Source: Opitutaceae bacterium TAV5
GTDB lineage: Bacteria; Verrucomicrobiota; Verrucomicrobiia; Opitutales; Opitutaceae
Assembly (NCBI GenBank): GCA_000242935.3
Contig: CP007053.1
Span: forward strand, 4,821,001-4,885,000
Length of the DNA stretch: 64,000 bases
Direction of reading: 5' to 3'
Part shown: piece by piece, positions 37,847 to 59,579 of the stretch
Layout of the letters: the number at the start of each line of letters is the position of its first letter
How positions within the stretch are numbered: position 1 is the stretch's first letter
Position numbers and translations under genes: made by a program
The notes under the pieces: generated by a model
What the model was told of the DNA's origin: nothing
Seen by the model: the letters and a program-made list of their open reading frames with translations, nothing else
The model's database searches: none

Positions 37847-37878
37847 TGGCGTTCTTCTGTTCTCCGATGAAGCCCGAC

Positions 37879-38982
37879 ATGGCCAGACAACCCACCATCC
37901 TCGACGTTGCGAAGAAGAGCGGATTTTCCAAAAGCACCGTATCGCTCGTGTTGCAGGACAGCCCGGAGATCCCGGACAAGACCAAGACGGCGGTCCGCAA
38001 GGTGATGGCGAAGCTCGGCTACCGGCACAACCGCTTCGCCCGCAGCCTGCGCACGCGCCGGTCGCATGTCGTCGGCATGGTGATACAGGATCATCTCAAC
38101 CCGTTTTACGCCGAGATCGTGCAGCACGCGGAGCAGCTTTTGCGCCGGCACGGCTACGATCTGGTGGTGAGCAGCAGCAACACCGACCTGGAAACCGAAA
38201 CGCTGGCGATCGAGCGGCTTTTCGCGATGCAGGTGGACGGGATGATCGTCTCGACGATGGATTACGCGCGTGCCGAGCCGTTGCTCTCGTCGATGCAGGC
38301 GCAGGGGACGCATTGCGTGGTGGCCGGTCCGGCGTATCCGGGAATCCCTTTCGACGCGGCCACGATCAACGATCGCCCGGCGATGCGCGCGGTGATGGAG
38401 CATCTTTTCGCGCTCGGGCACCGGCACATCGGTTTTATCTGGGGCGCGCCGGCTTTCCAGGCGATCGGCGCGCGCTTCGAGGTGTTTCGCCAGGAACTGG
38501 AGGCGGCGGGCCTGAGCGTGCGGGAAGAGTGGGTGAAGCGTTGCGGCTTCCGGCTCGAGGACGGTTACGCGGCGGCGGCGGCCTTGTTGCAGATGAAGAA
38601 ACGGCCGACCGCGGTCTTCGCGCTCAACGACCTGCTCGCGCTCGCCACGATCCGCGCCGCGCGCGACCTTCGCCTGGACGTGCCGGGCGATATTTCCGTG
38701 GTGGGTGCGGACAACGTGCAACTGGCGATGTCGTTTTGCCCGTCGCTGACGACGATCGACCAGCCGATCGAACAATACGCCACGGAGCTTACCCGGCTGG
38801 CCCTTTCGGGCATCGAGAAAAAAACACCGCCATCGCCTGCCGCCCGCAAATCCGCGGCGGCGGCATCCTCAGCCGCGGGCATGGCGGGTACCGCCGGCAA
38901 GGCTCTTCGCTGGACACCGGAGCGGGTCGAATTGACGGCCGGATTCCTCGTCCGCGAAAGCACGGGGCCGGTGCGAGGGTGA
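37879..38982 (+). CDS. LacI-family transcriptional regulator
   Basis: A 367-residue regulator with HTH TILDVAKKSGFSKSTVSLVL at residues 5-25 and hinge VRKVMAKLGYRHNRFARSLR. The effector domain has VVGMVIQDHLNPFYAEIV and AVFALNDLLALATIRAARDL, both typical. I prefer ATG 37879 (MARQPTILDV); ATG 37867 would add four residues. A 40-residue low-complexity insert (KKTPPSPAARKSAAAASSAA) precedes the last strand. No metabolic gene adjoins it, so the regulon is unknown. It is one of three LacI proteins in the window. Confidence 0.92.
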   Translation: MARQPTILDVAKKSGFSKSTVSLVLQDSPEIPDKTKTAVRKVMAKLGYRHNRFARSLRTRRSHVVGMVIQDHLNPFYAEIVQHAEQLLRRHGYDLVVSSSNTDLETETLAIERLFAMQVDGMIVSTMDYARAEPLLSSMQAQGTHCVVAGPAYPGIPFDAATINDRPAMRAVMEHLFALGHRHIGFIWGAPAFQAIGARFEVFRQELEAAGLSVREEWVKRCGFRLEDGYAAAAALLQMKKRPTAVFALNDLLALATIRAARDLRLDVPGDISVVGADNVQLAMSFCPSLTTIDQPIEQYATELTRLALSGIEKKTPPSPAARKSAAAASSAAGMAGTAGKALRWTPERVELTAGFLVRESTGPVRG

Positions 38983-39236: not shown

Positions 39237-39656
39237 ATGCGCATCTATTTGCCCGACACGAATGTGTTTTCACGCGCGATGCGGAAACAGGATGCGGCGC
39301 TTTCGGAACGTTTCATTGAGGCGGCTCCCCGGATCTGCCTCTCGGCGGTTGTCTGGTTCGAGCTGACCTATGGAGCGGAGAAGCGCCCGGACCTGCCGGT
39401 TTTTCAGGAGCGGCTTAATCTGCTGAGAGAGGCGATTCCGGAAACCGAACCGTTTGACGAGGAAGCCGCATGGCACGCGGCGCGCCTGCGTGTCTACCTC
39501 GAAACGCTGAAACCGAACGCGCAGCCGGTCGGGCATTACGACCTGCTGCTGGCCGGACATGCCCTGAGCATCGGCGCGATCCTGGTGACGCACAATGTCC
39601 GCGAATTCGTCCGCGTTCCCGGCCTTGTGGTGGAAGACTGGCAAACGGAAGACTGA
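39237..39656 (+). CDS. VapC-like PIN-domain toxin
   Basis: A 139-residue PIN ribonuclease. Acidic active-site candidates are D7 in YLPDTNVFS, the Glu of VVWFELTYGAE, the Asp of GHYDLLLAGHAL and the C-terminal THNVREFVRVPGLVVEDW. It directly follows its antitoxin gene. Family members cleave tRNA or rRNA when freed from the antitoxin. Confidence 0.9.
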   Translation: MRIYLPDTNVFSRAMRKQDAALSERFIEAAPRICLSAVVWFELTYGAEKRPDLPVFQERLNLLREAIPETEPFDEEAAWHAARLRVYLETLKPNAQPVGHYDLLLAGHALSIGAILVTHNVREFVRVPGLVVEDWQTED

Positions 39657-39659
39657 GCG

Positions 39660-40382
39660 CCTTTTCACCGGACATCCGGCGGCTTGAGGGAGGCTCTGAA
39701 AATTCTTTTTCCCGATCCGGCAAACTGACGCATTTTTTTAAAAATTGCAGCCGTACAGGATCCTGAAAACAGAACCACGGATTGCACGGATGCACACGGA
39801 TAAGAAGGAAGCGGCAAGGCATGGTTTGAATCCGTGATGATCCGTGAAATCCGTGGTTAAAAAACGGATACAGATTTATTTGAACCGCTCTGGCCGGGAA
39901 TGAACGTGGAGCGGCTGCGCCGCAACCGGGAGGTAGCCCACGAAACACACGAAAGGACACGAAAAGAAAGGCAGAAAACCGATGGTTTGTTTTTCGTGAA
40001 ACTGCCCTGAAAAATCGCGTACGGAAGCGTATGGTTTCTCCCGATACACGGATGCGTTCCGGATTCAAACCGGGATAGCCACAAAAAGCACAAAATTTCC
40101 TTCTGCCCGGCGGGAAGCTCCCGCGCGCTTATAAGCGCGATGGAGGATTTCATCCGCGGCGTGTTTTTTCGTGTTTTTCGTGGCCATTCTTCTTCCTTCG
40201 GTTACGGCACAGCCGCTCCAGATCATTTCGTGTGTTTGGTGGGCCGGATTCATGGAGATAGTTTGGCGGATTCCGGAAAAGCAACTTGCACCACAGAGGA
40301 AGGGAGCGGGCGCAGAGGCGGCTTCGCCGCGAGTGGAGGGCGGCTTCTTGACTGCCTGGCTTGGCCTGTGCATGGTCTGTGC
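39660..40382. repeat. Repeat-filled region between two toxin-antitoxin pairs
   Basis: No gene is supported. It contains an inverted repeat with arms ACCACGGATTGCACGGATGC (39772) and ATCCGTGAAATCCGTGGT (39840), and a copy of GAAACACACGAAAGGACACG (39941). A perfect 16-bp palindrome CGCGCTTATAAGCGCG is at 40124-40139, and further CGTGTTTTTCGTGG segments follow near 40157. Confidence 0.7.
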
Positions 40383-40589
40383 ATGGCAACGAAAACGATA
40401 TCCCTCGAAATTGAGGCGTACGACATGTTGAAAAAGGAAAAGCGCGCGCCCGGCGAGTCGTTTTCACAGGTGGTGCGCCGTCTGGTGACCGACCGCCCCG
40501 CCTTGACGGCGGAAGAGCTCATTGAGGCGCTGCAACCGTTCGAAGGCAAGGGAGCCGGGAAAAAGCGTCGCCGCCATGCTGCTGCTTGA
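40383..40589 (+). CDS. VapB-like antitoxin (DUF217-type)
   Basis: A 68-residue protein: TKTISLEIEAYDMLKKEK is a ribbon-helix-helix start and ESFSQVVRRLV the second helix, as in antitoxins of the archaeal/bacterial DUF217 group. The basic tail GKKRRRHAAA is unusual for an antitoxin. It overlaps the PIN gene by 14 bp. Confidence 0.82.
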   Translation: MATKTISLEIEAYDMLKKEKRAPGESFSQVVRRLVTDRPALTAEELIEALQPFEGKGAGKKRRRHAAA

Positions 40590-40947
40590 TACCAGTTTTC
40601 TGATCGAACTCGAATCCGAGGTGTCTGCACGCGTCTTGGGGGCGGCCAAACGTTTTCTGGCGGCGAAGCCGTTGGAAAGTGTTGCGGTGAGCATCATATC
40701 CCTTGGCGAATTTGCCGAAGGCTTTGAGGACAAAAATGACGTTGAGGCATTTTTGTCGCGATTCCGGGTTATTTCCCTATCGCGGAGCATTGCCTACAAG
40801 GCAGCGGCGATGCAGGCGTCGCTTTCGCAACGGCTCGGGGAAAATGATGCATGGATTGCCGCCACCGCGTTGACTTATGACGCCGACCTGATCGGAAGGG
40901 AAAAGGCGTTCGCGCGCGTCCCGCGATTGCGTTACAAGACATTCTGA
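40576..40947 (+). CDS. PIN-domain toxin
   Basis: A 123-residue PIN protein with LLLDTSFLIELE, SIISLGEFAEGF, GENDAWIAATAL and YDADLIGREKAF. These give the Asp/Glu/Asp/Asp metal-binding quartet in the correct order. I start at ATG 40576, inside the antitoxin end, so the pair is coupled. It belongs to a different PIN branch from the toxin at 39237. Confidence 0.9.
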   Translation: MLLLDTSFLIELESEVSARVLGAAKRFLAAKPLESVAVSIISLGEFAEGFEDKNDVEAFLSRFRVISLSRSIAYKAAAMQASLSQRLGENDAWIAATALTYDADLIGREKAFARVPRLRYKTF

Positions 40948-41063
40948 TCACGGTGCTCCGGCTCAAAATGCCGGAGCTTTTTGTGGCTGTTGCCGGGAAT
41001 GGCGAGGCGAAGCCGGAAGCGACGGAATCTGGCCGTCAGGAAAAACAAAACAGCGAATTTTCA

Positions 41064-41215: not shown

Positions 41216-41905
41216 ATGAAAACCTCGATTCGTCTGTCGTCCGTTCTGTTTGCTGCCGGCGTATTTGAAGCGTGCTTTTGCGCAATGGCGGATCCCGCAT
41301 CCGCATCCTCGACTTATGTCTATGATGCATCTGTCAATAACTGGTATTCGGCGACCGATGATCGTCCGGCCTTTACCAAATATACCTTTACTCCTGATGG
41401 GACTACATCGCCATTTCGTGTAGAGGCTCATACCTCACTGCTTTATGTGAATGTGCCGAATGCAGTCGGAGCCAATGCCAATCTCGTCGGTGCCCACGCC
41501 GGAGCAACATGGACTGCCCCGGCTGAAGAACAAATCTCGAGTATAACTCTTTCCTATGGCTCAGTTTTGACCCCCGGCTTGAACCTGTCGGTCTGGGGGG
41601 CCAGCGGAACCGGAGCCTTTACGACGGAGTTGGGACGCATTTCTCCGGCAGGTACCGTTGATAATCGCGGTAGCTCCACTTCCATTATCTTTACCGTTCC
41701 GGATGGAACGTCCATTACCAGCTTGCAAATCCGGGGACTGGAATTGGTCGCCGCCTCGGCCCTGGGGCAGGGCTGGTATGATCAGATCAGAGGCGTAACG
41801 ATCGAGACGGTGCCGCTTTCGAACATCCCTGAGCCCTCAACCTGTACCCTGCTGACCGGATTGTGCAGCCTGGGCGTCATTTGCGCTTTCCGTCGCAGAC
41901 GCTAG
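41216..41905 (+). CDS. PEP-CTERM sorting domain protein
   Basis: A 229-residue exported protein: signal peptide to about ADPASA, a Ser/Thr-rich beta body and the tail NIPEPSTCTLLTGLCSLGVI followed by CAFRRRR. First gene after the twin-operator promoter. Upstream of a pseudopilin and a large secreted protein. Base composition is lower in GC than most of the window, as for the next two genes. No enzymatic motif is seen; surface anchoring by exosortase is expected from the family. Confidence 0.88.
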   Translation: MKTSIRLSSVLFAAGVFEACFCAMADPASASSTYVYDASVNNWYSATDDRPAFTKYTFTPDGTTSPFRVEAHTSLLYVNVPNAVGANANLVGAHAGATWTAPAEEQISSITLSYGSVLTPGLNLSVWGASGTGAFTTELGRISPAGTVDNRGSSTSIIFTVPDGTSITSLQIRGLELVAASALGQGWYDQIRGVTIETVPLSNIPEPSTCTLLTGLCSLGVICAFRRRR

Positions 41906-42012
41906 CCTAGCTTGCCACCGTCGGCGGCAAGTGCCGAAGCTTCTCCGGTTGTGGCAACAGCTTTACCATTCCTTCCCTGCACACCTGTTAGCCCTTTGTC
42001 CCTGCTTTTCTT

Positions 42013-42708
42013 ATGAAACATCTCCTGAACTCCAGAATTCGCTCCGGTTTCACGCTCGTTGAATTACTTACGGTCATCGCAATTATCGGAATCCTTGCGG
42101 CCATCATTATCCCTACCGTCGGGAAAGTTCGTGAAACAGCAAAAGCAGCCACGTGTTTGAGCAACATCAGGCAATTGGGCCTCTCCCTGCTCATGTATGC
42201 GGAGCAAAATCGAGGACAATTGCCCGGCGAAAACAATCCCAAATGGGACTATGCGGCGCTGTCCATGTTTACACAGGAAAGTAACGGAACGATTCCCTAC
42301 AATAAAATCCTGAAATGCCCGAGTGACAATGAAGTGCGCACCGGGGAGAATATCGACAAGCCTCGTTCGTATGGCTATAATCCGGTCATGTGCAATCCAG
42401 GTGGAGGCTATGGTAATGAATCCATGTATGGTGTCAATTTGCCCGCACCCAATCAAGGGATGCGTATATCTGGAATTCCTAATCCGAGTCGTGTCGCTCT
42501 TTTGGTGGAATTTCACAGCAGCCTCAATGTCTATAACAGTGGTGCCTATGCAACGCGGGCAGAGCTGTTGTCCCTCCACAACGGGGGCATGAATGTGGCA
42601 TTCGCCGATGGCCGCGCCCAACGTATCAAGAATACGCCTGAATTACAGAAAACAGGCGCATATGGGCTAAAGCAATTCATTAACCTCTATTTGCGAAACA
42701 GTCCCTGA
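42013..42708 (+). CDS. Pseudopilin-like protein, N-methylation and H-X9-DG motifs
   Basis: A 231-residue protein. The type IV pilin-like start GFTLVELLTVIAIIGILAAI has the conserved Glu at +5 after the Gly cleavage site; the C-terminal HNGGMNVAFADG is the H-X9-DG motif of the large secreted pseudopilin family in Planctomycetes and Verrucomicrobia. Function in this family is unproven. It lies 107 bp after a PEP-CTERM gene and 73 bp before a secreted protein. The same order recurs at 60818-63178. Confidence 0.92.
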   Translation: MKHLLNSRIRSGFTLVELLTVIAIIGILAAIIIPTVGKVRETAKAATCLSNIRQLGLSLLMYAEQNRGQLPGENNPKWDYAALSMFTQESNGTIPYNKILKCPSDNEVRTGENIDKPRSYGYNPVMCNPGGGYGNESMYGVNLPAPNQGMRISGIPNPSRVALLVEFHSSLNVYNSGAYATRAELLSLHNGGMNVAFADGRAQRIKNTPELQKTGAYGLKQFINLYLRNSP

Positions 42709-42781
42709 TCTCTTCATCTTGGACTTTTGTCCGGTCTGCTCCCGACTGGCGGGAGGCCGTTCACTTTCTAACACCCAAATC

Positions 42782-45454
42782 ATGATCAAACGCACCTTCT
42801 CGTGGGCGCATGTCGCGCTCATTGTCATTACCTGCGCCGTCACGGCTTCAGTGAACGGAGCCACAACGAGGCTCGAATTACAGCCGGACAAGTATCCTGA
42901 TGCACTTGTCGTGCTAACCAATGGCCAGGACATCTGGACTCCCATGTCCGGATTCGGACCTGTCGTAATCAATGGAAACACGCCCCTTCGTCCCGAAGCT
43001 TATCGGGTAAAACTTCGTTCATCGGTCAAAACAAATACGGGTGATTTGCGGCTGGTTTACCACGTGACGAGTGTTTCGGAAAAAACGGAGTTCGCCATCG
43101 TCGCGGCACAAGACGCCCAAGGCATCACCCTGACCATCGAAGGACTGTCCGGGAAATTTCAGGGAGTTTATCCCGGACGCCTGCGTGCGAGACCAGAGAT
43201 CGTCGGCTTTACGGTTCCCGAGCGTGACCGTGAGGACTATCCCCAGCACGGCCGTTTCCCTGACATCTTCTATAACCGGAAACTCGGTGTTTGGGTCCAG
43301 GGGAAATGGAATCTTGATTTCGGAAACGCGAGCGGCGCTGATAATTTTTATCTGAAAGACGTTAAGGCCGTGGGTGGCATTGATGCCGTCTATTTCCCCG
43401 GATTGACGACGGACAGCAGCGGCAAGGACGCCTCGGCATTGTCAGAATATTATCTGGAAAACGGTCTGGTTTATGTGCCCATTCGTGACGGGGAACGCTT
43501 TCCGCTGAAAGAACAGTTTCGCCTGACCACGGGGGAACGGCTCTGGGATGCGGTGCCGGCTGTGGGCCAGAAACCAAGTCCTTACCGCGACCAGATGAAG
43601 AACCTGCTCTACGTTGACCTCTGGGGGGGGCTCTACAGCGATCGATCCGTATTTACAAAATGGATGCAATCCACCGTGGGGAAATGGGTTGGCGGACTGA
43701 CCATTCTCCAGGACTGGCAGGGCGGTGGTTTCGATTCACATCTGCCGCTGGCGATTTCCGACGAACTGCCTCCAAACCCCCGCAAGGCCGGAACGCCGGA
43801 TCAGTTGAAAACATGGATGGAGCAGATGAAAAGCTGGGGGCTGGCCGGACTGCGCACCAATTATCAGCTCTGGAGAGACACTCCCCTCCAGACTGTAAAG
43901 CGCGCCCAAAAAATCGACGGGACGCCGAAATGGCACACACAGCCCCAGGATGTCCTGCCCCTCGTCAAACAGCAGGAAACCTATATCCAGTCTCTCCTCG
44001 GCACCACGGCCACCTTCTCTGACCAGTTAACTTCGGGAGGAGCGGCGTGGCCGTATGTCGAATACAGCAAGGAGAACCCTGACGCCGGAACGATACGGGG
44101 AGCGCGCACTGCACTCCGCACGCAGTCCAGGCTGATCAAGGAAATCGTCGGAGGCCCTCTCCTCTCCGAATCCCTCAACACCCAGTTCCTCATTGGTGAA
44201 TATGTGGATTCCGGAGACTACGGAATTTTTGAAGGTTACAGTCGCCTGATCACCCCCGAGTTCAAGCTTCGTCGGCTGCATCACCTCACCACATTTTACG
44301 GGATGGGACTCGGATATCGTTACTTCTTCGCGCCTCCTTACGGTAACCAGGGCAACAACCGTCAGAATCAGGGCAACGCCATGTATGCATCTCCATGGGG
44401 ACCCGGTTCCGATGATTATCGCGCGATGACCATCGCCTACGGGAATGCCGCCTACCTCGACTATCTGAGTGCCGAGGGGATGCACTCTGACAAAGCTCTC
44501 ACCGAGGCCATGACGGTAGGACTGCTCCAGAAATACTATGTCGGCGAACCTGTCCGGGAAATTTACTATGAAAGCGAGACGCCCGGAGAGTGGGCCACTC
44601 TGGAGGCATTGTTGTTGTCGGGAAAAAACCCTCAGCCGTTTTTTGCCCGGATGAAGATCGTTTACAAAAACGGCCTCATCGTCGTCGTGAATCGCAAGGA
44701 AGAAAACCTTGCGTGGACGCTGCCTGTGTTCGGCGACATCGTGCTCCCGCGACGTTCGTATGTCGTCTATTCTGCCGATGGTGCTGTTGAAGGCTTCTCC
44801 GGCATCCCCGGCGCGTCCGGTGACGCGTCCGCGAGGATCGACTACACGAAAGACGACAACCGGAAGGTTCTCTTCATCAATCCCAGGGCCACCGGTTACA
44901 GGAACCTCGTGGCAGCCACGATTTTTGAGGATGGCAAAAAAGTGTACGAACTGCCTCCCGAACGCCGGCTGCGTCCTCGCGTGGCCGGCTCGTTTGAAGA
45001 CGCGTTTACCGAAGCAGTGCGCTGGGTCGCAGGCAAGGATGTCAAGGCCGGGCACGTGATTGAGGATCAGGACGCATTTGTGCGTATTGAATCTCCGGAC
45101 ACAAGGCCGGCGCGCATTGACAAGCCGGTGGGACGCGTCCTTGGCGGTCGGGTGGCGCTGCGTTATCGCGTCAATCGCACCGATCCGGCCTCCGCAGGCG
45201 CCATCGCCAGCGTCGCCCTGATGCGTTTCGGAGAGGTCAACGGCACCGTGCGTGAGGTCGACGGTCGTCAGGCATTTGCCCTTCCCGATACAGATGGCAA
45301 GTGGAAGGAAGCGGCGTTCCCCTTTGCGTTCTCCGCGGAGAATACCCGGCATGTGGTTTTGCGCCTCGCGGTGAACGATCCCGAAATCAAGGGGGGGGTC
45401 CCGGCCCCCGGCTCACTGGATGTGGATTACATCAGAATCGACCCTGAAAAATGA
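42782..45454 (+). CDS. Large secreted protein, probable glycoside hydrolase
   Basis: An 890-residue exported protein with a signal peptide (SWAHVALIVITCAVTASVNG). Residues about 30-250 look beta-rich, like an N-terminal sandwich domain. The middle (LYVDLWGGLYSDRSVFTKWM, then LTILQDWQGGGFDSHLPLAI) and MKSWGLAGLRTNYQLW resemble a TIM-barrel sugar hydrolase of the endo-alpha-N-acetylgalactosaminidase/DUF5696 type. The C-terminal 150 residues form another beta domain ending SLDVDYIRIDPE. I cannot assign a family or catalytic residues. The stop overlaps the start of a CBM9-like gene (ATGA). Regulation by the LacI-type promoter at 41064 is inferred. Confidence 0.6.
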   Translation: MIKRTFSWAHVALIVITCAVTASVNGATTRLELQPDKYPDALVVLTNGQDIWTPMSGFGPVVINGNTPLRPEAYRVKLRSSVKTNTGDLRLVYHVTSVSEKTEFAIVAAQDAQGITLTIEGLSGKFQGVYPGRLRARPEIVGFTVPERDREDYPQHGRFPDIFYNRKLGVWVQGKWNLDFGNASGADNFYLKDVKAVGGIDAVYFPGLTTDSSGKDASALSEYYLENGLVYVPIRDGERFPLKEQFRLTTGERLWDAVPAVGQKPSPYRDQMKNLLYVDLWGGLYSDRSVFTKWMQSTVGKWVGGLTILQDWQGGGFDSHLPLAISDELPPNPRKAGTPDQLKTWMEQMKSWGLAGLRTNYQLWRDTPLQTVKRAQKIDGTPKWHTQPQDVLPLVKQQETYIQSLLGTTATFSDQLTSGGAAWPYVEYSKENPDAGTIRGARTALRTQSRLIKEIVGGPLLSESLNTQFLIGEYVDSGDYGIFEGYSRLITPEFKLRRLHHLTTFYGMGLGYRYFFAPPYGNQGNNRQNQGNAMYASPWGPGSDDYRAMTIAYGNAAYLDYLSAEGMHSDKALTEAMTVGLLQKYYVGEPVREIYYESETPGEWATLEALLLSGKNPQPFFARMKIVYKNGLIVVVNRKEENLAWTLPVFGDIVLPRRSYVVYSADGAVEGFSGIPGASGDASARIDYTKDDNRKVLFINPRATGYRNLVAATIFEDGKKVYELPPERRLRPRVAGSFEDAFTEAVRWVAGKDVKAGHVIEDQDAFVRIESPDTRPARIDKPVGRVLGGRVALRYRVNRTDPASAGAIASVALMRFGEVNGTVREVDGRQAFALPDTDGKWKEAAFPFAFSAENTRHVVLRLAVNDPEIKGGVPAPGSLDVDYIRIDPEK

Positions 45455-46257
45455 TCCGGACTTTTTCGTCATCGGCTGTCATGGTATTTTTACTACTGAT
45501 GGCAGGAGCCGTCCCGACATTTGCGACCGGCGCGGGTACGCGGCAAGCGGTCGACGCTCACGCCTTGCCCGAGGTGCGCGTTCCGAAAGTGTCCGTCCCG
45601 CCGAAGCTGGATGGCAAGGGAGGCGATCCGGCTTGGCGTGGGGCGGCGCGAGTGGAGCTTCGGGACTTTTGGATGAAGCCGGATGCCGTTCCCGCGCAGG
45701 CAACGCGCGTATCTCTCCTGCACGACGGGAAAACACTCTATCTCGCTTTTGATTGTGAGGATGCGGACATCCGTGCTACGTGCGCCGATCACGATGGACA
45801 GACCTTCCGGGATGACTGCGTGGAGATTTTTCTCGGCGCCCCGATCGAGCGGTTGGCTGACGCGGCATGTCTGGAAATCAACGCGCTCGGCACGGTGGCC
45901 GACTATTATTACCGTCATGCAGACTGGATAAACTACCGTTTCGAGAGCAAGGCGCGGATTGCGGTTTCGCGAACCCGGTTTGACGGTGATGACGGCAAGG
46001 AGATGACCGGTTATCGGGTAGAGGTCGGGATTGAGTTTTCCGCGTTCCTTCCTGTGCTCAATTTTTTTCCGGGCGAAGAAGCATCTTCGCTGTCGATGGG
46101 GAACATGCCTGTCAGGATACGAGCCAATTTTGCGCGTTGGGACAGGGGGCAACGCGATGCGGGTGGAGAGCGTTTCTCCATCTGGTCTGATCCCCTGTTC
46201 CCGTTCGCACATCCCCATCGACCCGAACGTTACGGGTGGCTGATTCTGGAAAAATGA
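45451..46257 (+). CDS. Secreted carbohydrate-binding (CBM9-like) protein
   Basis: A 268-residue exported protein. After the signal peptide, VPPKLDGKGGDPAWRGAARV and VSLLHDGKTLYLAFDCEDAD and FRDDCVEIFLGA are the ordered motifs of family-9-type carbohydrate-binding domains. The middle LEINALGTVADYYY and the late SMGNMPVRIRANFARWDRG also fit. It is the last gene of the 41-46 kb cluster and is coupled to the preceding gene by a 4-bp overlap. A sugar-binding role is inferred from the fold. Confidence 0.82.
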   Translation: MIRTFSSSAVMVFLLLMAGAVPTFATGAGTRQAVDAHALPEVRVPKVSVPPKLDGKGGDPAWRGAARVELRDFWMKPDAVPAQATRVSLLHDGKTLYLAFDCEDADIRATCADHDGQTFRDDCVEIFLGAPIERLADAACLEINALGTVADYYYRHADWINYRFESKARIAVSRTRFDGDDGKEMTGYRVEVGIEFSAFLPVLNFFPGEEASSLSMGNMPVRIRANFARWDRGQRDAGGERFSIWSDPLFPFAHPHRPERYGWLILEK

Positions 46258-51946: not shown

Positions 51947-52837
51947 TCAGTTTTTCGCGACATCGCCGCCAGCCGGCGGAGGCACGCCGGAGGGCGCGGC
52001 GACGCCGCTGCGGGCGATGAGGCGTTCGAGCTGTTTGCCGCGGGCGTCCTGCTCCAGGCCGGAAAGCCAGGTGCGCCAGGTGTTGGGATAGACCTTGTAG
52101 TGCCGGCGGAAGGCGCGGCAAAAATCGCTGGTGCTGTTGAACCCGCATTGCGGGGCGATGACGTCCAGCGTCTCGTCGGTGCCGGCGAGTAGCCCGGCGG
52201 CCTTGTCGAGGCGGAGCTGCATGAACACCTCATGCGGACTGCGCCCGTGCACGAGCCGGAACTGGCGTCGCAGATGCGCGGGGGAGATGTGGACCGCGGC
52301 GGCCAGCGCATCGAGCGTGGGACGTTCGTGCAGATGGGCGAGATACCAGTCGACGGCGCGCTCCACGCGTTCGACGGCGAGGGTTTCGAGCGGGAGTCCG
52401 GTATCCTGTTTGTGTTCGCGGAGCAGGATCAGGCTGAGGTCGATCAGGGCGCGCTCGAAGAGCAGCAGCGAGACCGGCGTCGGATTGCGGTAATGGTTCT
52501 GGAGCGAGGCCGCGAGGTTGCGGAGAAACGTGATGTCGGGCTTGCGCAGCGGGGAGGAGAGGTGGCGCGGTTCGCGGCAGGCCTCGCGGATGGCATCCGG
52601 GACCGAGGGGAAGTGGAACACCACCCGTTCGAAAGGAGCTTCGGAGACCCAGCCGTGCAGGGTTTCGGGCGGGAAAACCCAGAGTGTGGGGCCGGAAAGG
52701 GGAGGATCGGGCAGGTCGTAGAAGGAGGGGCGAAGCTGGCCCCGGAGGTTGGCGTAAAACTCCCAGTTGAAGCGGGAGCTCACGTCGATCGCCTCGACGG
52801 AGAAGTCTTTGTACCCGGCGGCCAGATAGCGCAGCAT
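51947..52837 (-). CDS. AraC-family transcriptional regulator
   Basis: A 296-residue regulator. An N-terminal sensor resembling a cupin (FYDLPDPPLSGPTLWVFPPE) is followed by two HTHs, ALAAAVHISPAHLRRQFRLV and LDVIAPQCGFNSTSDFCRAF with YPNTWRTWLSGL after them. I take ATG 52837 (MLRYLAAGYKDF) as the start. It begins 35 bp after the LacI gene stop, so both regulators are probably co-transcribed. It may control the lyase genes to the right. Confidence 0.9.
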   Translation of the reverse strand: MLRYLAAGYKDFSVEAIDVSSRFNWEFYANLRGQLRPSFYDLPDPPLSGPTLWVFPPETLHGWVSEAPFERVVFHFPSVPDAIREACREPRHLSSPLRKPDITFLRNLAASLQNHYRNPTPVSLLLFERALIDLSLILLREHKQDTGLPLETLAVERVERAVDWYLAHLHERPTLDALAAAVHISPAHLRRQFRLVHGRSPHEVFMQLRLDKAAGLLAGTDETLDVIAPQCGFNSTSDFCRAFRRHYKVYPNTWRTWLSGLEQDARGKQLERLIARSGVAAPSGVPPPAGGDVAKN

Positions 52838-52872: not shown

Positions 52873-53919
52873 TCAATCGCTCTGCGGTGCCCGCACGGTC
52901 GGTCCGTCCACCCAGCGGGCGGGAAGCAGGGTGGCCGAGGCGGTCGCCGGGATGCCGCAATCGTTGCGCAGGAGTTGTCCCGCGAGCAGCTCGATGCCGC
53001 GCGCGCCGAGCGTGGCGGGTTGCAGGTCGAGGCCGGCGCAAGGCTGCTCGCTGTTGGTGAGGTTGAGGCAGCAGAAACCGTGCGTCTGCGGCACGTGCGC
53101 GCCGGCGGCGGTCATCCACCGGAGGAGGACGGGGTCGTGGCCGAGTACGACGTCAGGCCGGGTGGCGCGAAACCAGCGGGTGAAGGCGGCCTGCTCGGGG
53201 CGGTCCAGAATCAGCGGCGAAGGTTTGCGCCGCGTGCCGCCGTAATACGCCGGCCAGATCCGGCCGGCGGCTTCCCAGCGATGGAGGAGCCGGGCGTCGT
53301 GGGAGCGGTGCAGCACGAGGCCGGGCCGGCGGTAGCCGAGGGCGTGAAGCCGGTCGAGCGCGAGGAACAGGGCGCGGTGGTGATCGGAGCAGAGCGTATG
53401 CAGGGCGGGACGCGCGATCACGTGATCGGCATAGAGGCCGGAGAAGCGGCTCCAGTCCAGTGCGGAAAGATCGGGCTCCTCGCGGACGGGCAGGATGAAG
53501 AGGCCCCGGATGCCGCGCGCGAGAAACACCTCGCCGAGGCGCCGGAGCGAGAGCCGGTTGCGGCCCAGCCCGGGCGAGAACAGCTCGGTCTTGAAACCGA
53601 GCTCGCCGGCGCGCAACGAGGCCCCGCGGGCGAGTTCGCCGTGGAAACGGGCGGAGCCGGGCGGACGGCCGGCGGGGCCGTCGGGATCGAGCAAGGCGAT
53701 GACACCGCGAAACGTGCCGGAACGCGAACGGCGCATCTCGGACATGAGCGCGCCGGCCAGCGGATTGTGCCGGTAGCCGGCTTCACGCGCGGCCTCGAGG
53801 ATGCGGCGCGCAGTGGCGGATTTGACGCGGGGGCTGCCGCGCAGGGCTTCCGACACGGTGGTGCGGGACAAACCCAGCAAACGGGAAAAGGCGCGAAGCG
53901 AGAGTGGCGAGTCGGGCAT
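52873..53919 (-). CDS. LacI-family transcriptional regulator
   Basis: A 348-residue regulator with HTH LRAFSRLLGLSRTTVSEALR and hinge RRILEAAREAGYRHNPLAGALM. The effector domain follows the LacI pattern. It is divergent from the PL26-like lyase gene, and an exact 13-bp palindrome (53928-53940) lies just upstream of its start, so it is likely the local repressor for rhamnogalacturonan degradation. Confidence 0.92.
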   Translation of the reverse strand: MPDSPLSLRAFSRLLGLSRTTVSEALRGSPRVKSATARRILEAAREAGYRHNPLAGALMSEMRRSRSGTFRGVIALLDPDGPAGRPPGSARFHGELARGASLRAGELGFKTELFSPGLGRNRLSLRRLGEVFLARGIRGLFILPVREEPDLSALDWSRFSGLYADHVIARPALHTLCSDHHRALFLALDRLHALGYRRPGLVLHRSHDARLLHRWEAAGRIWPAYYGGTRRKPSPLILDRPEQAAFTRWFRATRPDVVLGHDPVLLRWMTAAGAHVPQTHGFCCLNLTNSEQPCAGLDLQPATLGARGIELLAGQLLRNDCGIPATASATLLPARWVDGPTVRAPQSD

Positions 53920-53940: not shown

Positions 53941-54116
53941 TTCAGCCAGGATGGCGCCGCCGGCGCAAGGGCCGCGAAATGAAAGATGCCGGACAGGATT
54001 ATCGCCGCCTGACGTTTGCCGACGACGGCCCGCTGCGGGATGATTCGCTGCGCCGGCACTGTTGCCGCGATTCCGCGACGGCGGTTCACCGGATTCACCG
54101 TTTTTCAGACTCAGCC

Positions 54117-56930
54117 ATGTCCGCTCTCACTCGCCGGGCTTTTATCAAAAATTCCGCCTTCGCCGCGGCCTCCCTGCCGCTGGCCTCTTCGTTGTTGCGG
54201 GCGCAGCCGGCCGCGTCCTCCGCTTTGCCGCCGGCGGTGCCCGTTTCCGCGCCGGTTGCGCCGGGCGGGGCTTCGCTGCGCTGGCTCGACGGTGCGCCGC
54301 CGGCCGTGCAGCCGGGCGCAGCCTGGGGCGTGCCCTGGCCGCGCGGCGAGGTGAAGGCGGGGGAGCCCTTTGCCTTGCGCACGGCAGCCGGCGCGGCCGT
54401 GCCGGTGCAGACCTGGCCGCTGGCGACCTGGCCGGACGGATCGCTGAAGTGGACCGGCCACGCGATCCCGGCCGGCGCGGCGACAGGCCGGGACGGTGAG
54501 GCGCAAACGCTGACGCTGCTGGCGGGCGCCGCGCCGGCCGCACCCGCGCAGCCGGTGGCCGTGACGGAATCGGCCGACGCGGTGGAGGTTTCCACCGGCG
54601 TCATCACCTGCCGGATACCGCGCCGGGGCGGCGTGCTGGTGGCGACGATCCTCCGCGACGGCCGGGAAATCGCCCGGGCCGGCCGGCTGGTGGCGTTGCG
54701 GCAGGCGGACGCGCCCGATGCGGACGCGGCTGCGGCCGTCGCAGTGGAAGCATTTGCCGGCGAGGTGACTTCGCTCGCGATCGAGCAGGACGGCCCGGTG
54801 CGCGCCGTGGTGAGGCTGGAGGGCAGTCATCGCAACGAGGCCGGGCGCGCGTGGCTGCCGTTTGTGGTGCGGCTGTATTTCCATGCGAGCGGCGAGACGG
54901 TGCGGATGGTGCACACGTTTATCTACGACGGGGACGAGCACCGGGATTTCATCCGCGGGCTGGGCATCCGGTTCGATGTGCCGCTGCGCGATGCGCCGCA
55001 CGATCGCCATGTGCGCTTCACCGGCGAGGGCGCGGGGCTCTGGGCGGAGGCCGTGCGGGGCGTCACCGGCCTGCGGCGCGATCCCGGCAAGGAAGTGCGC
55101 GCCGCCCAGGTGGCCGGCCTGGCCACGCCGCCGCTCTCCGCCTGGGACAAGCGCGTGTCGTCGCGCCTCGACCTGATCCCGGCGTGGGGCGATTACACGC
55201 TGAGCCAGCTTTCCGCCGACGGTTTCGGGATTCGCAAGCGCACGAAACCGGGCCACGCCTGGATTCAGGCCGCCTCGGGCCGGCGCGCGTCCGGCCTCGC
55301 GTACCTCGGCGGACCCTCCGGCGGCTTCGCTTTCGGGCAGCGGTATTTCTGGCAACGTTACCCGGTGCAGATCGACATCCGCGGCGCGGCGCAGGAGGCG
55401 GGCGAGGCGGCGGAGGTCACGAACTGGCTCTGGTCGCCCGAAGCGCCCGCGATGGACCTGCGTTTTTACCACGACGGCCTCGGCATGGATACGCACGAAA
55501 AGGAACGCGAGGGGCTGGAGATCACCTACGAGGATTACGAAAAAGGCTTCGGCACGCCGCACGGCATCGCCCGCACCAGCGAACTTTTTTTCCACGCGCT
55601 GGAGGCGACGCCGCCGCGCGGGCGTTTCCCGGAACTGGCCGCCGCGCTCGTGCAGCCGGGCGTGATCGCCGCCGCACCGGCGCACCTGCGCGCCGCGGGC
55701 GTTTTTGGCGACTGGAGTCTGCCCGACCGCTCCGCGCCGGAAAAGGCGCGTCTCGAGGACCAGCTCGACCACCTCTTCGCTCTCTATGCCAGGCAGGTCG
55801 AGCAGCGCCGCTGGTACGGCTTCTGGGACCACGGCGACGTGATGCACACCTACGACCGCGACCGCCACGAATGGCGTTACGACGTGGGCGGCTACGCGTG
55901 GGACAACTCCGAGCTCTCGCCCGATCTCTGGCTCTGGTACACCTTCCTGCGCTCGGGCCGGGCGGACGTTTTCCGCCTCGCCGAGGCGATGACCCGCCAC
56001 ACCGGCGAAGTGGACGTGTATCACCTCGGCCGGTTCCGGGGGCTGGGCACGCGGCACAACGTGCAACACTGGGGTTGCTCGGCCAAGCAGCTGCGGATCA
56101 GCACGGCGGTGTATCGGCGTTTTTACTACTACCTGACCGCCGACGAGCGCACCGGCGACCTGCTGCACGAACTGGTCGATGCCGACGAGGCGTTCCTGAC
56201 GCTCGATCCTCTCCGCAAAATCCGGAAGGAGCCGATCCCGCCGCCGGCGCGCTCCGCCGTGAGCGTGGGTTTCGGCACCGACTGGGGCTCGCTGGCCGCG
56301 GCCTGGCTGACGGAGTGGGAGCGCACGGGCGACACGCGGGCGCGCGACAAGCTGCTGGCGGGCATGCGCACCATCGCCGCACAGCCGACCGGGTTTTTGG
56401 CGGGCGGCGGAAGTTTCAATCTGGATACGGGCGAGTTTGCGGTGGAGACGGAGGCGCGGATTTCCGTGTCGCACCTCAATGCGGTTTTCGGCCTTGCGGA
56501 GATTTGTTCCGAGCTGGTTTCGCTCGTGGACGTGCCGGCCTTCCGCGAGGCGTGGTTGCGGTATTGCCGGCTTTACAATGCAAGCGCCGACGAGCAGCGA
56601 GCGGCTCTCGGCCGCGACCTCGGCAGACTGAACCTGCGCGAATCACATGCGCGTCTCACGGCCTGGGCGGCGCGGAGTACGGCCGACCCGGATTTGGCGG
56701 CGCGGGCATGGCAGGAGTTTTACAGTGGCCGCTCCGGTCTCGGCGTACACGACGACTTGCATCCGCGCGCGATTGTCGGCCCGGCGGTGCTCAATCCGGT
56801 GGAGGAGAGTTTCGGCCTCGGCACCAACGCCACCGCCCAGTGGGGTCTCGCGGCCATCCAGTGTCTCGCCCTCGTCGGCGACCGGATGCCGGCAGGCGTG
56901 GAGCCGGCCCCGACAGACGCGCCTGGATGA
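54117..56930 (+). CDS. Tat-exported exo-rhamnogalacturonan lyase-like protein (PL26 type)
   Basis: A 937-residue protein. The Tat signal is SALTRRAFIKNSAFAAASLP. Residues about 50-160 form the RIFT-barrel N-terminal domain (GVPWPRGEVKAGEPFALRTA with TWPDGSLKWTGHAI), followed by a central beta-sandwich and an alpha/alpha-toroid C-terminal domain with HWGCSAKQLRISTAVYRRFY. This is the fold of Penicillium PcRGLX, an exolytic rhamnogalacturonan lyase. I cannot verify the catalytic residues from memory. ATG 54117 matches the signal peptide; earlier codons lack one. It is divergent from LacI, and a PL11 gene lies in the same region. Confidence 0.8.
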   Translation: MSALTRRAFIKNSAFAAASLPLASSLLRAQPAASSALPPAVPVSAPVAPGGASLRWLDGAPPAVQPGAAWGVPWPRGEVKAGEPFALRTAAGAAVPVQTWPLATWPDGSLKWTGHAIPAGAATGRDGEAQTLTLLAGAAPAAPAQPVAVTESADAVEVSTGVITCRIPRRGGVLVATILRDGREIARAGRLVALRQADAPDADAAAAVAVEAFAGEVTSLAIEQDGPVRAVVRLEGSHRNEAGRAWLPFVVRLYFHASGETVRMVHTFIYDGDEHRDFIRGLGIRFDVPLRDAPHDRHVRFTGEGAGLWAEAVRGVTGLRRDPGKEVRAAQVAGLATPPLSAWDKRVSSRLDLIPAWGDYTLSQLSADGFGIRKRTKPGHAWIQAASGRRASGLAYLGGPSGGFAFGQRYFWQRYPVQIDIRGAAQEAGEAAEVTNWLWSPEAPAMDLRFYHDGLGMDTHEKEREGLEITYEDYEKGFGTPHGIARTSELFFHALEATPPRGRFPELAAALVQPGVIAAAPAHLRAAGVFGDWSLPDRSAPEKARLEDQLDHLFALYARQVEQRRWYGFWDHGDVMHTYDRDRHEWRYDVGGYAWDNSELSPDLWLWYTFLRSGRADVFRLAEAMTRHTGEVDVYHLGRFRGLGTRHNVQHWGCSAKQLRISTAVYRRFYYYLTADERTGDLLHELVDADEAFLTLDPLRKIRKEPIPPPARSAVSVGFGTDWGSLAAAWLTEWERTGDTRARDKLLAGMRTIAAQPTGFLAGGGSFNLDTGEFAVETEARISVSHLNAVFGLAEICSELVSLVDVPAFREAWLRYCRLYNASADEQRAALGRDLGRLNLRESHARLTAWAARSTADPDLAARAWQEFYSGRSGLGVHDDLHPRAIVGPAVLNPVEESFGLGTNATAQWGLAAIQCLALVGDRMPAGVEPAPTDAPG

Positions 56931-57078: not shown

Positions 57079-57954
57079 TTGAAACGGCTTTTCCTTTTGT
57101 TCGCCTTCCTTCTCGCGTTGTCCTGCGGCGCGCAGGATTCGCCGTGGGAACTGGCCGCGCGTTTCGATTTCAACGCCGCCCGGCAGGCGCTCCGCCAGGC
57201 GGCCGGGACCGGCGTCGAAAGTGCCGACGCCGCCGAAACGCGCGAATTGCTCCAGGCTGCCGTGCTGCTCGGCGTGCAGCCGCGCACGGAGGACAACGTC
57301 CGCCAGGCGCTGGCCGGTGTGCGCGCGCTTTCCGCGCGCCCGGGCATCTCCGAAGACACCTTCGTGGCCGCCCGCTACCTTGAGGCGCGGATTCTCGGCC
57401 TCCACCTCGAACCGCGCGACGGCGCGGGCGCGCGGACGATCCATGCCGATCTGCTGGAACACCACCGCGCCCATCCGCTCGCGCAGCAGGGCGCGGCGAC
57501 GCTGGCGCTGGGGCTTTTGTATGACAACGCGCAGGCGGAGCGGCCGGAGCGGCTGGCGGCGGCGGAGGCGCTGCTCGCCCGGGTCACATCGCCCGAGGCG
57601 GAGCGCGACCTGCGTTACGTGATCGGCCATGCCCGGCTGCGTTGGGGGCTGGGGATCGGGGAGGCATCGGCACATCTGGAGCAGGCGGCGCAGATCGGGT
57701 TTCACCAGCAGCAGCGGCAGGCGTCGCTTTACGTGACGCTGGGGCAACTGGCCGAGGAGCGGGGCGACCTGGCGCTGGCCCGGGAGAGTTACCGGAAATT
57801 CCTGCAACTGGCCCGGCGCGATACGCGCGTGCATGCGATCGGCGAGCGGCTGGCCGCGCTGGAAGGCAAGCCGGGAGGTGAGGCGGATGGCGATTCATCC
57901 GGAGTTTCAACACCCGTCGGCCCGCTGGCGGGCGGAAAGGAGGCGCATCGGTGA
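57079..57954 (+). CDS. TPR-like lipoprotein
   Basis: A 291-residue protein from a TTG start. The N-terminus FLLFAFLLALSCGAQ has a lipobox-like LALSC. The body is helical with repeated Ala/Leu/Arg pairs (ARYLEARILGLHL, AATLALGLLYDNAQ, QASLYVTLGQLAEERGDLAL) suggesting TPR units. It overlaps the sugar-binding protein gene by 4 bp (GTGA). It probably works with that protein at the membrane, but no family is certain. Confidence 0.7.
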   Translation: MKRLFLLFAFLLALSCGAQDSPWELAARFDFNAARQALRQAAGTGVESADAAETRELLQAAVLLGVQPRTEDNVRQALAGVRALSARPGISEDTFVAARYLEARILGLHLEPRDGAGARTIHADLLEHHRAHPLAQQGAATLALGLLYDNAQAERPERLAAAEALLARVTSPEAERDLRYVIGHARLRWGLGIGEASAHLEQAAQIGFHQQQRQASLYVTLGQLAEERGDLALARESYRKFLQLARRDTRVHAIGERLAALEGKPGGEADGDSSGVSTPVGPLAGGKEAHR

Positions 57955-59579
57955 AAAGCAGGCTCGTACCCTTTGTCGGCCTGGCGCTGCTGGCGGCGGT
58001 TTTTGTGCTCGCGAGCTGGCAGCAGATGCGGCGCACGCGGGAGCGGACCGATCCCGGCGTGAGGGAGATTCACCTCGGTCATTTTATGATCCACGCGGGC
58101 ATGCGCGAGGGGCTCGACGAGGTCATCGCCGCCTACGAAAACCTCAACCCGGGCGTGCGTGTGAAACAGGACGCCGTGCCGCTCCGGGCGTGGTCGGCCT
58201 GGCAGCGCGCGCAGTGGGCGGGCGGCACCACGCCGGATATCATGCAGATCGGCAAGGACACAGGCGACCTGGAGCTGGGCCGCTATTACCTCGCACTCTC
58301 TCCCTGGGTGGAATCACCCAACCCCTACAACCGTGGCACGCCGCTGGAAGGTATCCCTTGGCGGGATACGTTCGTGGACGGGCTGAGCGGAGGCACGGGC
58401 TACTCGGCGGCGCTGGGCGACTCGTACGGCATCCCGTCGCAGGTGAACACGCTGCGCCTTTTTTACAACCGCAGTCTCCTCCGCGCCGTGACCGGCCGCG
58501 ACAAACCGCCGGCGACGTTCGCGGCGTTGCTGGAGGTCGGGCGGGCGGCGCAGGCGTGGTCGGCGGACCGGGCAGGGGAGGGCGCCGGCCCGGACGGGCG
58601 GCGGGCCATCGTGCCGCTGGCCGCGAGCGGACCATACGCGGGGTTTTTGTTCGATTTCCTCTCGCAGAGTTTCACCGGCGAACTGGCGCGCCCGTTCACG
58701 CCGTCGCGGACGCTGCGGCCGGAAATGACCGACGTGGCGCGCGCGGCGCTGGAGGGGCGCTGGTCGCTGGACGATCCGCCGGTGCGCCGGTTGCTGGAGG
58801 CGTGGGCCGAGGTGGCCGCGCTGTGCCCGCCGGGCTACCTGACGCAGGAGCGCGAGGACGCGCAGTTTACCTTCGTGACGGGGCGTTCGCTGTTTCTCGT
58901 CGCGGGAAGCTGGGACAACGCCGGGGTGCTCCAGGAAGCGGGTTTCCCGGTCGGCGTGGCGCGGTTTCCCTTCCCCGGACGCGGCGAGGGCTACTGGGGC
59001 GAGTTTTCGTCGGGACCGTATTCGGAAGCCAATGCCGGCTTCGGCGCGGAGCTGGCGGTGGCGCGGACCTCGGCGCATCCGGAACTGGCGATCGATTTCC
59101 TGCGCTACCTGACGAGTTACGAGGCGAGCCGCCGGCTCACGATCCGCAGTCGCCGGTTGCCGGCGATCGTCGGGGTGCCGGTGCCGGAGGAGATGGAGCC
59201 GTTCCTGCCGCGCACGGATGGTGCGGCGGCGGGTTTTTCGGTGGTCATGAACGGCCTGCCGGGCGGCAACACCGCCCTCTTGATGAAGCAGCAGTTTTAC
59301 CGGCTGGTGAATCGCGGCGGCGAACCCGGCGACGGCGCGGCGGCGGTGGAGACGTTCGTGGCGGCGGTGCGACCGGGCTGGGAGCCTGCGTTGCGGCGCG
59401 ATCTCGCCCGGGCGACGCAGGCGCGTCTGCCGACGCTGCGCGCGGCGGACGTGCGGGTGGCCTTTGCCGCCACGGACGAAAGGACCGCCACCGGCGAACG
59501 CGCGGAGCGGATCGCCGAACTGCGCGAGGCGATGCTCGACCAGGAGGCGGGCTGGTATCAGTTGCGCGAGGCGCCGTGA
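57951..59579 (+). CDS. ABC sugar-binding protein, family 1
   Basis: A 542-residue solute-binding protein from a GTG start. An N-terminal hydrophobic anchor (LVPFVGLALLAAVFVLAS) precedes a SBP_bac_1-type domain: LDEVIAAYENLNPGVRVKQD, GGTTPDIMQIG, LFYNRSLL and GYWGEFSSGPYSEANAGFGA are typical. It is longer than usual, with a C-terminal extension (about 470-542). No permease or ATPase genes are adjacent; it may serve a distant transporter. It is coupled to the TPR lipoprotein gene. Confidence 0.88.
   Translation: MKSRLVPFVGLALLAAVFVLASWQQMRRTRERTDPGVREIHLGHFMIHAGMREGLDEVIAAYENLNPGVRVKQDAVPLRAWSAWQRAQWAGGTTPDIMQIGKDTGDLELGRYYLALSPWVESPNPYNRGTPLEGIPWRDTFVDGLSGGTGYSAALGDSYGIPSQVNTLRLFYNRSLLRAVTGRDKPPATFAALLEVGRAAQAWSADRAGEGAGPDGRRAIVPLAASGPYAGFLFDFLSQSFTGELARPFTPSRTLRPEMTDVARAALEGRWSLDDPPVRRLLEAWAEVAALCPPGYLTQEREDAQFTFVTGRSLFLVAGSWDNAGVLQEAGFPVGVARFPFPGRGEGYWGEFSSGPYSEANAGFGAELAVARTSAHPELAIDFLRYLTSYEASRRLTIRSRRLPAIVGVPVPEEMEPFLPRTDGAAAGFSVVMNGLPGGNTALLMKQQFYRLVNRGGEPGDGAAAVETFVAAVRPGWEPALRRDLARATQARLPTLRAADVRVAFAATDERTATGERAERIAELREAMLDQEAGWYQLREAP

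Follow-up and report, generated by a model that had tools for sequence, protein, structure and literature searches.

Genes for H-X9-DG pseudopilins, PEP-CTERM proteins and large secreted proteins lie together in runs across the genome of Opitutaceae bacterium TAV5, a termite-gut bacterium, and this association is real, genome-wide and larger than first noted from one stretch of its DNA. That stretch, the 64,000-nucleotide window analysed here (contig CP007053.1, positions 4,821,001 to 4,885,000), carries two such units, whose genes, order and spacers are as given in a preliminary description of the sequence: 107 bp from the PEP-CTERM-like gene to the pseudopilin gene and 73 bp from there to the gene for an 890-amino-acid (aa) protein in unit 1, and 45 bp (PEP-CTERM to pseudopilin) and 71 bp (pseudopilin to PL11) in unit 2. 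The genes are co-located, whole units have been copied, and the arrangement recurs in other genera, families and some other classes, there as pseudopilin, enzyme and regulator only. As to the mechanism behind the association, we infer that the runs are analogues of polysaccharide loci in which a locus-specific pseudopilin may make a few shared secretin/ATPase machines specific for particular glycans, a reading that we place at a probability of about 0.45. The genes of the two units are as follows.

41216 to 41905, plus strand: unit 1 PEP-CTERM-like secreted protein, 229 aa (C-terminus in the sequence; weak NCBIfam subfamily matches)
42013 to 42708, plus strand: unit 1 H-X9-DG pseudopilin, 231 aa (N_methyl; DUF1559/SBP_bac_10; TIGR04294 22.7 bits)
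42782 to 45454, plus strand: unit 1 secreted protein of an unnamed family, 890 aa (56-58% identity to homologues in the TAV5 stretches L067, L097 and, in part, L104, and in strain TAV2)
45451 to 46257, plus strand: unit 1 secreted CBM9-like protein (CBM9_1 1.7e-8)
60818 to 62356, plus strand: unit 2 PEP-CTERM protein with autotransporter-type repeats, 512 aa (PATR 1.5e-18; PEP-CTERM 0.0055)
62402 to 63106, plus strand: unit 2 H-X9-DG pseudopilin, 234 aa (N_methyl 3.1e-6; TIGR04294 20.8 bits)
63178 to 64000, plus strand: start of the unit 2 PL11 rhamnogalacturonan lyase (RGI_lyase and RGL11_C, 8.4e-63), which ends beyond the window in the adjoining stretch L061

The TAV5 genome comprises two contigs totalling 7,417,673 bases, corresponding to published replicons of 7,317,842 and 99,831 bases (PMC4358385). 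It holds at least 83 matches to the pseudopilin model TIGR04294 at 19 bits or more (among the best 150 of 401 candidates) and at least 150 matches to the PEP-CTERM model TIGR02595 (the best 150 of 386 candidates). For the pairing test, all of the best 150 entries of each family were used, pseudopilin entries below the cut-off included. On these lists, a pseudopilin and a PEP-CTERM gene lay within 2.5 kb on the same strand 42 times (circular shifts averaged 7.3 and reached at most 19 in 500), and thus well above chance in the comparison that had been set in advance; the PEP-CTERM gene was upstream in 27 pairs and downstream in 15. Only one opposite-strand pair was seen at this distance versus 7.5 expected, and a local-jitter control that preserves regional clustering, scored on either strand, gave 43 against 16.1 (maximum 29). 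LacI-type genes were likewise found within 3 kb of 44 of the 150 pseudopilins versus 17.4 expected (maximum 33 in 1000). LacI-type DNA-binding domains themselves number at least 150 in TAV5 (best 150 of 250 candidates), an expansion comparable to that of the pseudopilins.

Pseudopilin runs and their partners in TAV5

Gene neighbourhoods were taken from 59 stretches fetched around pseudopilin matches, the stretch that continues the window and 20 control stretches at even spacing, a sample of the better-scoring pseudopilins rather than a random one. Genes were called with a custom codon-based caller, which missed the CBM9 gene at 45451-46257 and gave later starts for the genes at 53979 and 60818; further genes may likewise have gone uncalled. 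The fetched stretches, window and control stretches together yielded 67 distinct pseudopilin runs. A PEP-CTERM gene was present in 49 of the 67, compared with 16 of 193 control genes (Fisher 5e-24) and, at a control gene length of 180-320 aa, 6 of 67 (Fisher 1e-14), the controls leaving out pseudopilin runs and PEP-CTERM genes themselves. The PEP-CTERM pattern behind these figures was loosened after the C-termini of pseudopilin neighbours had been viewed and was then applied equally to the controls; the count of 42 against 7.3 is independent of it. The nearest PEP-CTERM gene was adjacent to the pseudopilin in 36 of the 49 runs (27 upstream, 9 downstream), with a median gap of 75 bp. Five further stretches (L073, L099, L104, L105 and L112) stand outside the 67, their pseudopilins having been missed by the strict H-X9-DG pattern, and inspection placed a PEP-CTERM gene in the same-strand run of all six pseudopilins that they contain.

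One pseudopilin per run was nearly constant (66 of 67 runs, with two in L100), and three further close same-strand pseudopilin pairs occur outside the called runs, among the best 150 of 401 candidates. Of the 67 runs, 17 contained at least two other secreted proteins of 200 aa or longer, and 33 had a LacI or AraC regulator beside them, compared with 33 of 217 control genes. In the 60 runs with another partner, the largest had a median length of 680 aa versus 386 aa in 60 control partners, and 37 of 60 versus 20 of 60 were secreted according to a simple custom rule for signal-peptide-like N-termini. Scanned against Pfam (E up to 1e-4), these partners matched the carbohydrate-related families GH42, GH39, GH38, GH130, raffinose-synthase type and PL11 (the window's own), together with sialic acid esterase, heparinase-like, CE2, CBM9 and beta-helix families. 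Partners also included SSF symporters, which replace the enzyme as neighbour at some loci, solute-binding proteins, and unrelated housekeeping neighbours such as a tRNA-ribosyltransferase and a methyltransferase. Of two control batches of 30 each, one matched 57 families and the other 42, mostly housekeeping among the 25 listed for each, the possibly carbohydrate-related ones being BNR, GH4, acetyl xylan esterase, GDSL and laminin-G. The enrichment of enzymes in pseudopilin runs is therefore visible in kind, not as a protein-by-protein count.

Three units related to unit 1 were found elsewhere in TAV5, one complete and two altered, and their pseudopilins are the three closest relatives of that at 42013 when every gene called in the fetched stretches of TAV5 is compared. 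In L067 all four genes follow the order of unit 1 with 42, 47, 56 and 61% identity (BLASTP), and a LacI gene lies beyond them. In L097 the pseudopilin (50%) and the large protein (57%) are related to those of unit 1, the PEP-CTERM protein is unrelated and no CBM9 gene was called. L104 has a rearranged order, with pseudopilin and CBM9 proteins 53% and 52% identical to those of unit 1, a PEP-CTERM protein with no match, and a large protein (L104:7302-9053) shortened to 583 aa that shares 58% over 405 residues with the 890-aa protein. A complete counterpart is present in Geminisphaera colitermitum TAV2 (L155), in the order LacI, PEP-CTERM, pseudopilin, 770-aa homologue and CBM9; with a two-row profile run against 223 genomes of the order, only TAV2 matched among the matches listed, at most three candidates being scored per genome. 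Units 1 and 2 were also considered as copies of each other, an idea that we rejected: their pseudopilins share only 32-34%, and no match was found between their PEP-CTERM proteins or between their large proteins, PL11 being compared as the piece within the window. As judged from their sequences, the two units have a common architecture, not common descent.

The pseudopilins combine a constant frame with a variable middle. In an alignment of 67 TAV5 pseudopilins, each of two Cys residues was kept in 64, an Arg in all 67 and a Tyr in 62, none of which had been a selection criterion, and each of the 59 stretches fetched by a C-terminal model match contains a gene whose pilin motif includes the Glu. 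Both window pseudopilins exceed the N_methyl cut-off and the TIGR04294 cut-off of 19 bits; for PF07596 (DUF1559/SBP_bac_10), the unit 1 protein scores 31.8, above the gathering score of 23.3, and the unit 2 protein 18.4, below it. Against the GspG model TIGR01710 (cut-off 88.85) they reach 38.3 and 34.4 bits, respectively, both below, and the similarity is N-terminal. Profile searches of TAV5 matched 7 secretins and 13 T2SSE-type ATPases, and 4 exosortases (PF09721) over the cut-off. SusD had no match in the TAV5 genome in a search whose control was positive in Bacteroides.

Recurrence in other genomes

Among 87 genomes of the order, 21 had pseudopilin matches (E up to 0.001), and PEP-CTERM matches were present in all 21 of these versus 41 of the 66 without pseudopilin, a comparison that ignores phylogeny and genome size; many genomes of the order therefore have PEP-CTERM proteins without pseudopilin matches. 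TAV5 had 41 pseudopilin matches in this survey and the next genome 12. By the loose pattern, a PEP-CTERM gene accompanied the pseudopilin in 17 of the 19 runs called in six related genomes. The caller missed two more pseudopilins, one of which lies in a seventh genome: that of L174 has no PEP-CTERM gene nearby, and that of L177 has one about 1.6 kb upstream. In L174 (1077-4989), the pseudopilin-like gene stands, by eye, right after a solute-binding-type gene and two permease-like genes, with a LacI-like gene on the other strand.

Pseudopilin matches (E up to 1e-4) were found in 49 of 144 genomes of the phylum, with up to 19 matches and more than 100 candidates in other classes; TAV5, with 21 in the same survey, is therefore not unique in the phylum. 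In five genomes from other classes, 20 stretches contained 36 pseudopilins (relaxed pilin motif), and no PEP-CTERM gene turned up among the 157 genes surrounding them. A secreted protein of 400 aa or longer is present in 12 of 15 pseudopilin runs of two of these genomes (G227 and G231). Ten of their partners were scanned, giving GH123 in two, GH5 in two, CBM9 with F5/8C in one, a DUF4838 protein that also matched the GH67 N-terminal family weakly, an endonuclease/phosphatase carrying a laminin-G domain, and no match in three. All seven neighbouring genes scanned were LacI-, GntR- or AraC-type regulators, six with a periplasmic-binding-protein-like domain. Pseudopilin, enzyme and regulator thus occur together in part of the other classes too, with PEP-CTERM as an addition seen in Opitutales. 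As an obligate partner PEP-CTERM was accordingly rejected, since it is missing from 18 of the 67 TAV5 runs and from the surroundings of all 36 other-class pseudopilins; the recurrent unit with enzymes differing from one copy to the next, as first described, survives with its PEP-CTERM member no longer fixed.

Groups of two to five adjacent pseudopilin genes were also seen in G293 and G314 (L186, L188, L189 and L197), with no large secreted protein in the run. Prepilin peptidases classically want Gly before the pilin motif. The residue before F-T-L-x-E was Ala in 39 and Gly in 32 TAV5 cases (overlapping stretches counted twice), and R, K, S or others in the five other-class genomes (G227, G293, G231, G338 and G314; L179-L198), where Gly occurred once in 39.

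Proposed glycan capture and its rivals

A typical locus contains one H-X9-DG pseudopilin, one PEP-CTERM protein and one or several large secreted proteins that are often carbohydrate-active, sometimes with a sugar transporter, and with a LacI- or AraC-type regulator alongside in about half. We propose that the regulator would sense a sugar and turn the run on, and that the pseudopilin, with its assembly Glu, constant frame and variable middle, would enter the filament of one of a few shared secretin/ATPase machines. Its variable domain would make the filament specific for the glycan of that locus, the polymer would be caught and pulled to the surface or into the periplasm, and the co-encoded enzymes would cut it there. 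The PEP-CTERM protein, sorted by one of the four exosortases, would be a surface partner in Opitutales, presumably a dispensable one because in some other classes pseudopilin and enzyme occur in its absence. An extended form of this reading, modular glycan capture in which dozens to more than 100 interchangeable pseudopilins, each with its own enzymes and regulator, lend specificity to a few filament machines, is tentative and doubtful as it stands; were it true, the pilin would have the role of SusD, with PEP-CTERM added as surface partner in Opitutales, and the rule would also explain the expanded DUF1559 family of Planctomycetes.

How closely the pseudopilin follows its partner bears on what it might do. 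In 36 pairs of units whose partners are at least 40% identical (nine families, enzymes and symporters), the pseudopilins were related in 22 and unrelated in 14, and a strict tie of pseudopilin to partner protein was rejected on that account. Where both units of a strict pair have a PEP-CTERM protein, these proteins were related in 10 of the 19 pairs whose pseudopilins are related and in 0 of the 10 whose pseudopilins are not. In a five-unit family, pseudopilin and PEP-CTERM change jointly while the enzyme stays constant. The reverse coupling fails: L097 retains a unit 1-type pseudopilin with an unrelated PEP-CTERM protein, and among 2211 unit pairs 59 have related PEP-CTERM proteins and unrelated pseudopilins. 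A looser test on 87 units gave an odds ratio of 46 for related pseudopilins versus related partners, from pairs that are non-independent. Because the pseudopilin can change while the enzyme stays, our reading is that it probably belongs to the locus more than to a single enzyme. For the same reason, and because runs almost always have a single pseudopilin regardless of the number of secreted proteins, we prefer glycan capture over enzyme export, which is an argument, not proof.

In favour of this reading we also count the strong pairing, the LacI and AraC neighbours, the units related to unit 1, the many pseudopilins beside few secretins, ATPases and exosortases, the missing SusD, the conserved frame of the pseudopilins, the enzymes and regulators beside them in G227 and G231, and the published alginate operon and dextran-binding fibres (PMC13274419, PMC5394234). 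Several results weigh against glycan capture at polysaccharide loci. GH42 genes show a modest excess near pseudopilins, with 11 of 29 within 5 kb versus 5.4 expected (15 of 1000 shifts as high) and 6 versus 3.5 within 3 kb (135 of 1000 shifts as high). To the 18 TAV5 runs without PEP-CTERM can be added a second batch of partners in which at most 8 of 20 matched any Pfam family and at least 12 matched none, leaving "carbohydrate-active" unproven there, and three other-class genomes (G293, G338 and G314) in which none of 21 pseudopilin runs holds a secreted protein of at least 400 aa. The full conservation of the pilin-motif Glu and of Asp-Gly among the 67 pseudopilins is partly due to the pattern that required them. 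Structure predictions of a pseudopilin alone and of the 890-aa protein with one homologue, at a mean predicted local distance difference test score of 37 and 31, were too poor for use. The first pseudopilin gene contains a promoter-like site (42353-42381, 11 matches in 12), so that the unit 1 enzyme may be transcribed separately. Finally, the authors of a related published case suggest type II secretion export, and their proteomics had one replicate per treatment (PMC13274419).

That case is Verruconatronum alginivorum, a member of the Opitutales, in which a cluster of lyases, an SSF symporter and a PulG-like pseudopilin appeared to be upregulated as a single operon on alginate; its genome has 67 homologues of this pseudopilin, another of which was among three over-expressed genes outside clusters (PMC13274419, published in 2026). 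Membership of the Opitutales and a pseudopilin clustered with lyases and a symporter are shared with TAV5, whereas in the main text of that paper the term PEP-CTERM has 0 occurrences and, in the portions available, no genome-wide rule is drawn. In Planctomycetes, dextran has been located on pili-like fibres and in the periplasm (PMC5394234), and dedicated pilin-like proteins acting as "fishing rods" are the guiding hypothesis of a review (PMC12078418). Fibres that bind a polysaccharide reaching the periplasm resemble what we propose; unlike our case, they belong to another phylum, and the accessible text of both sources leaves the pilin genes unnamed and gives no locus structure. Planctomycete proteins with the same N_methyl and SBP_bac_10/DUF1559 domains form large families with dozens of paralogues, in T. 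immobilis often beside signal-peptide genes, for which the text available gives no function and draws no link to PEP-CTERM or carbohydrate loci (PMC8567305, PMC10632474). An armatimonad with 79 PulG genes and an enrichment of pseudopilins in some Verrucomicrobiae have also been described (PMC4072686, PMC12487129), and the accessible part of PMC8233224 contains nothing on the locus. Among the papers listed by full-text searches, with most subscription journals and preprints outside their reach, none was seen to state a PEP-CTERM/pseudopilin/polysaccharide-locus rule for the phylum. Within the portions of the literature covered, the PEP-CTERM pairing and the nearly constant rule of one pseudopilin per run were not found in print, and the gene association was partly anticipated in 2026 for one operon (PMC13274419).

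The foremost rival to glycan capture is dedicated export, in which an interchangeable type II secretion subunit would select the co-encoded enzyme, and perhaps the PEP-CTERM protein too, for a shared secretin, as type II export has likewise been suggested for alginases in the text available of PMC13274419. The GspG-type similarity of the pseudopilins, although below the cut-off of that family, the several secretins and ATPases of the genome, the signal-peptide-like N-termini of 37 of 60 partners versus 20 of 60 controls and the 22 of 36 strict pairs in which pseudopilin similarity tracks partner homology are all consistent with it, whereas the 14 remaining pairs, the loci with a symporter as neighbour instead, and the single pseudopilin in 66 of 67 runs, although 17 of the 67 have two or more other secreted proteins, argue the other way. 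We know of no requirement in type II secretion for one pseudopilin per substrate, which we also count against export. Of the dedicated export unit put forward in the preliminary description, the association stood, and a strict enzyme-specific exporter is disfavoured by these same counts; the idea is possible, not favoured, and dedicated export as a whole we hold to be unlikely.

Alternatively, a pseudopilin filament and the PEP-CTERM protein might form a scaffold that holds the enzymes of the locus at the cell surface as a pilus-borne display. Enzymes, PEP-CTERM protein and pseudopilin are indeed encoded together, and CBM9 and other binding modules occur within runs, but some partners appear cytoplasmic or are transporters, and we consider this reading improbable. 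Least probable of all is hitchhiking by an expanded paralogous family that travels with mobile carbohydrate loci and has no locus-specific function: huge copy number, partner shuffling and, in G293, G338 and G314, pseudopilins standing in arrays or alone with no enzymes would fit, and the strand bias (42 same versus 1 opposite), the conserved core residues, the retention across genera, families and part of other classes, and the presence of one such gene within an alginate-induced operon (PMC13274419, as far as its text was available) speak against it.

Bacteroidota polysaccharide utilisation loci carry a SusC/SusD pair. The TAV5 runs resemble those loci in having a regulator, surface proteins and glycan-specific enzymes at each locus, a recurrent class of marker protein and many loci per genome, and differ in that TAV5 has no SusD match and a pseudopilin serves as the marker, accompanied in most Opitutales cases by a PEP-CTERM protein. 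The pseudopilin offers a marker for polysaccharide loci in bacteria without SusD, and the large secreted proteins without Pfam match in the runs are candidate new enzymes. Pseudopilin families of dozens to hundreds in Verrucomicrobiota and Planctomycetota stand without function in the available text of PMC10632474 and PMC8567305, and a tie of each copy to one polysaccharide locus would allow a direct test on single glycans.

The two units and their neighbourhoods

The following features adjoin the two units.

37867 to 38982, plus strand: LacI-family regulator upstream of unit 1 (Pfam LacI 3.3e-13)
40955 to 40977, plus strand: terminator-like hairpin and T run just upstream of unit 1 (sequence scan)
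51947 to 52837, minus strand: AraC-type regulator in the unit 2 region (HTH_18 4.4e-22)
52873 to 53919, minus strand: LacI-type regulator in the unit 2 region (Pfam LacI 1.4e-6, 28.4 bits against 27)
53979 to 56930, plus strand: PcRGLX-like protein of exo-rhamnogalacturonan lyase type (three PcRGLX Pfam domains, best 4.1e-191)
57951 to 59579, plus strand: extracellular solute-binding protein of sugar ABC type (SBP_bac_8 7e-15)
L061:1771-3495, just outside the window: PL4-like lyase after PL11 (PL4 domains)

Unit 2 thus adjoins further rhamnogalacturonan-lyase genes (PcRGLX-type and PL4-like), AraC and LacI regulators and a solute-binding protein, a predicted gene neighbourhood that supports the polysaccharide-locus reading. 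Its enzyme was correctly named as PL11 from the outset, both RGI_lyase and RGL11_C domains being present. The PEP-CTERM protein at 60818 scored 17.6 bits against a TIGR02595 cut-off of 16 in the genome search, but 14.1 in hmmscan, just under.

In unit 1, the PEP-CTERM assignment of the protein at 41216 comes from a C-terminal motif seen by eye and sub-threshold NCBIfam subfamily matches only, and the protein is not among the best 150 of 386 TIGR02595 candidates of the genome. The large protein had been described as polysaccharide-active, a label that it carries because a CBM9 gene adjoins, the start of which overlaps its stop by 4 bp. The 890-aa protein itself has no Pfam match, an NCBIfam search gave only E 0.6 to an unrelated model, and PDB sequence searches with the protein and with a four-member profile returned nothing convincing (best E 0.46 and 1.5). 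Across its family (42782-45454, L067, L097, L104 and L155), the middle is strongly conserved at residues of about 270-730, and we regard these proteins as a candidate new enzyme family.

No terminator-like site was found between genes within unit 1 or within unit 2 in a sequence scan that gave 10 such sites in the region versus 6.0 expected from shuffles. The LacI gene at 37867 was considered as an orthologous part of unit 1 and rejected, having only 22-26% identity to the LacI proteins of L067 and L155. Between it and unit 1 lie two PIN-domain (toxin-type) genes (39237-40947), a block that was possibly inserted, and the open frame between the two may encode an antitoxin.

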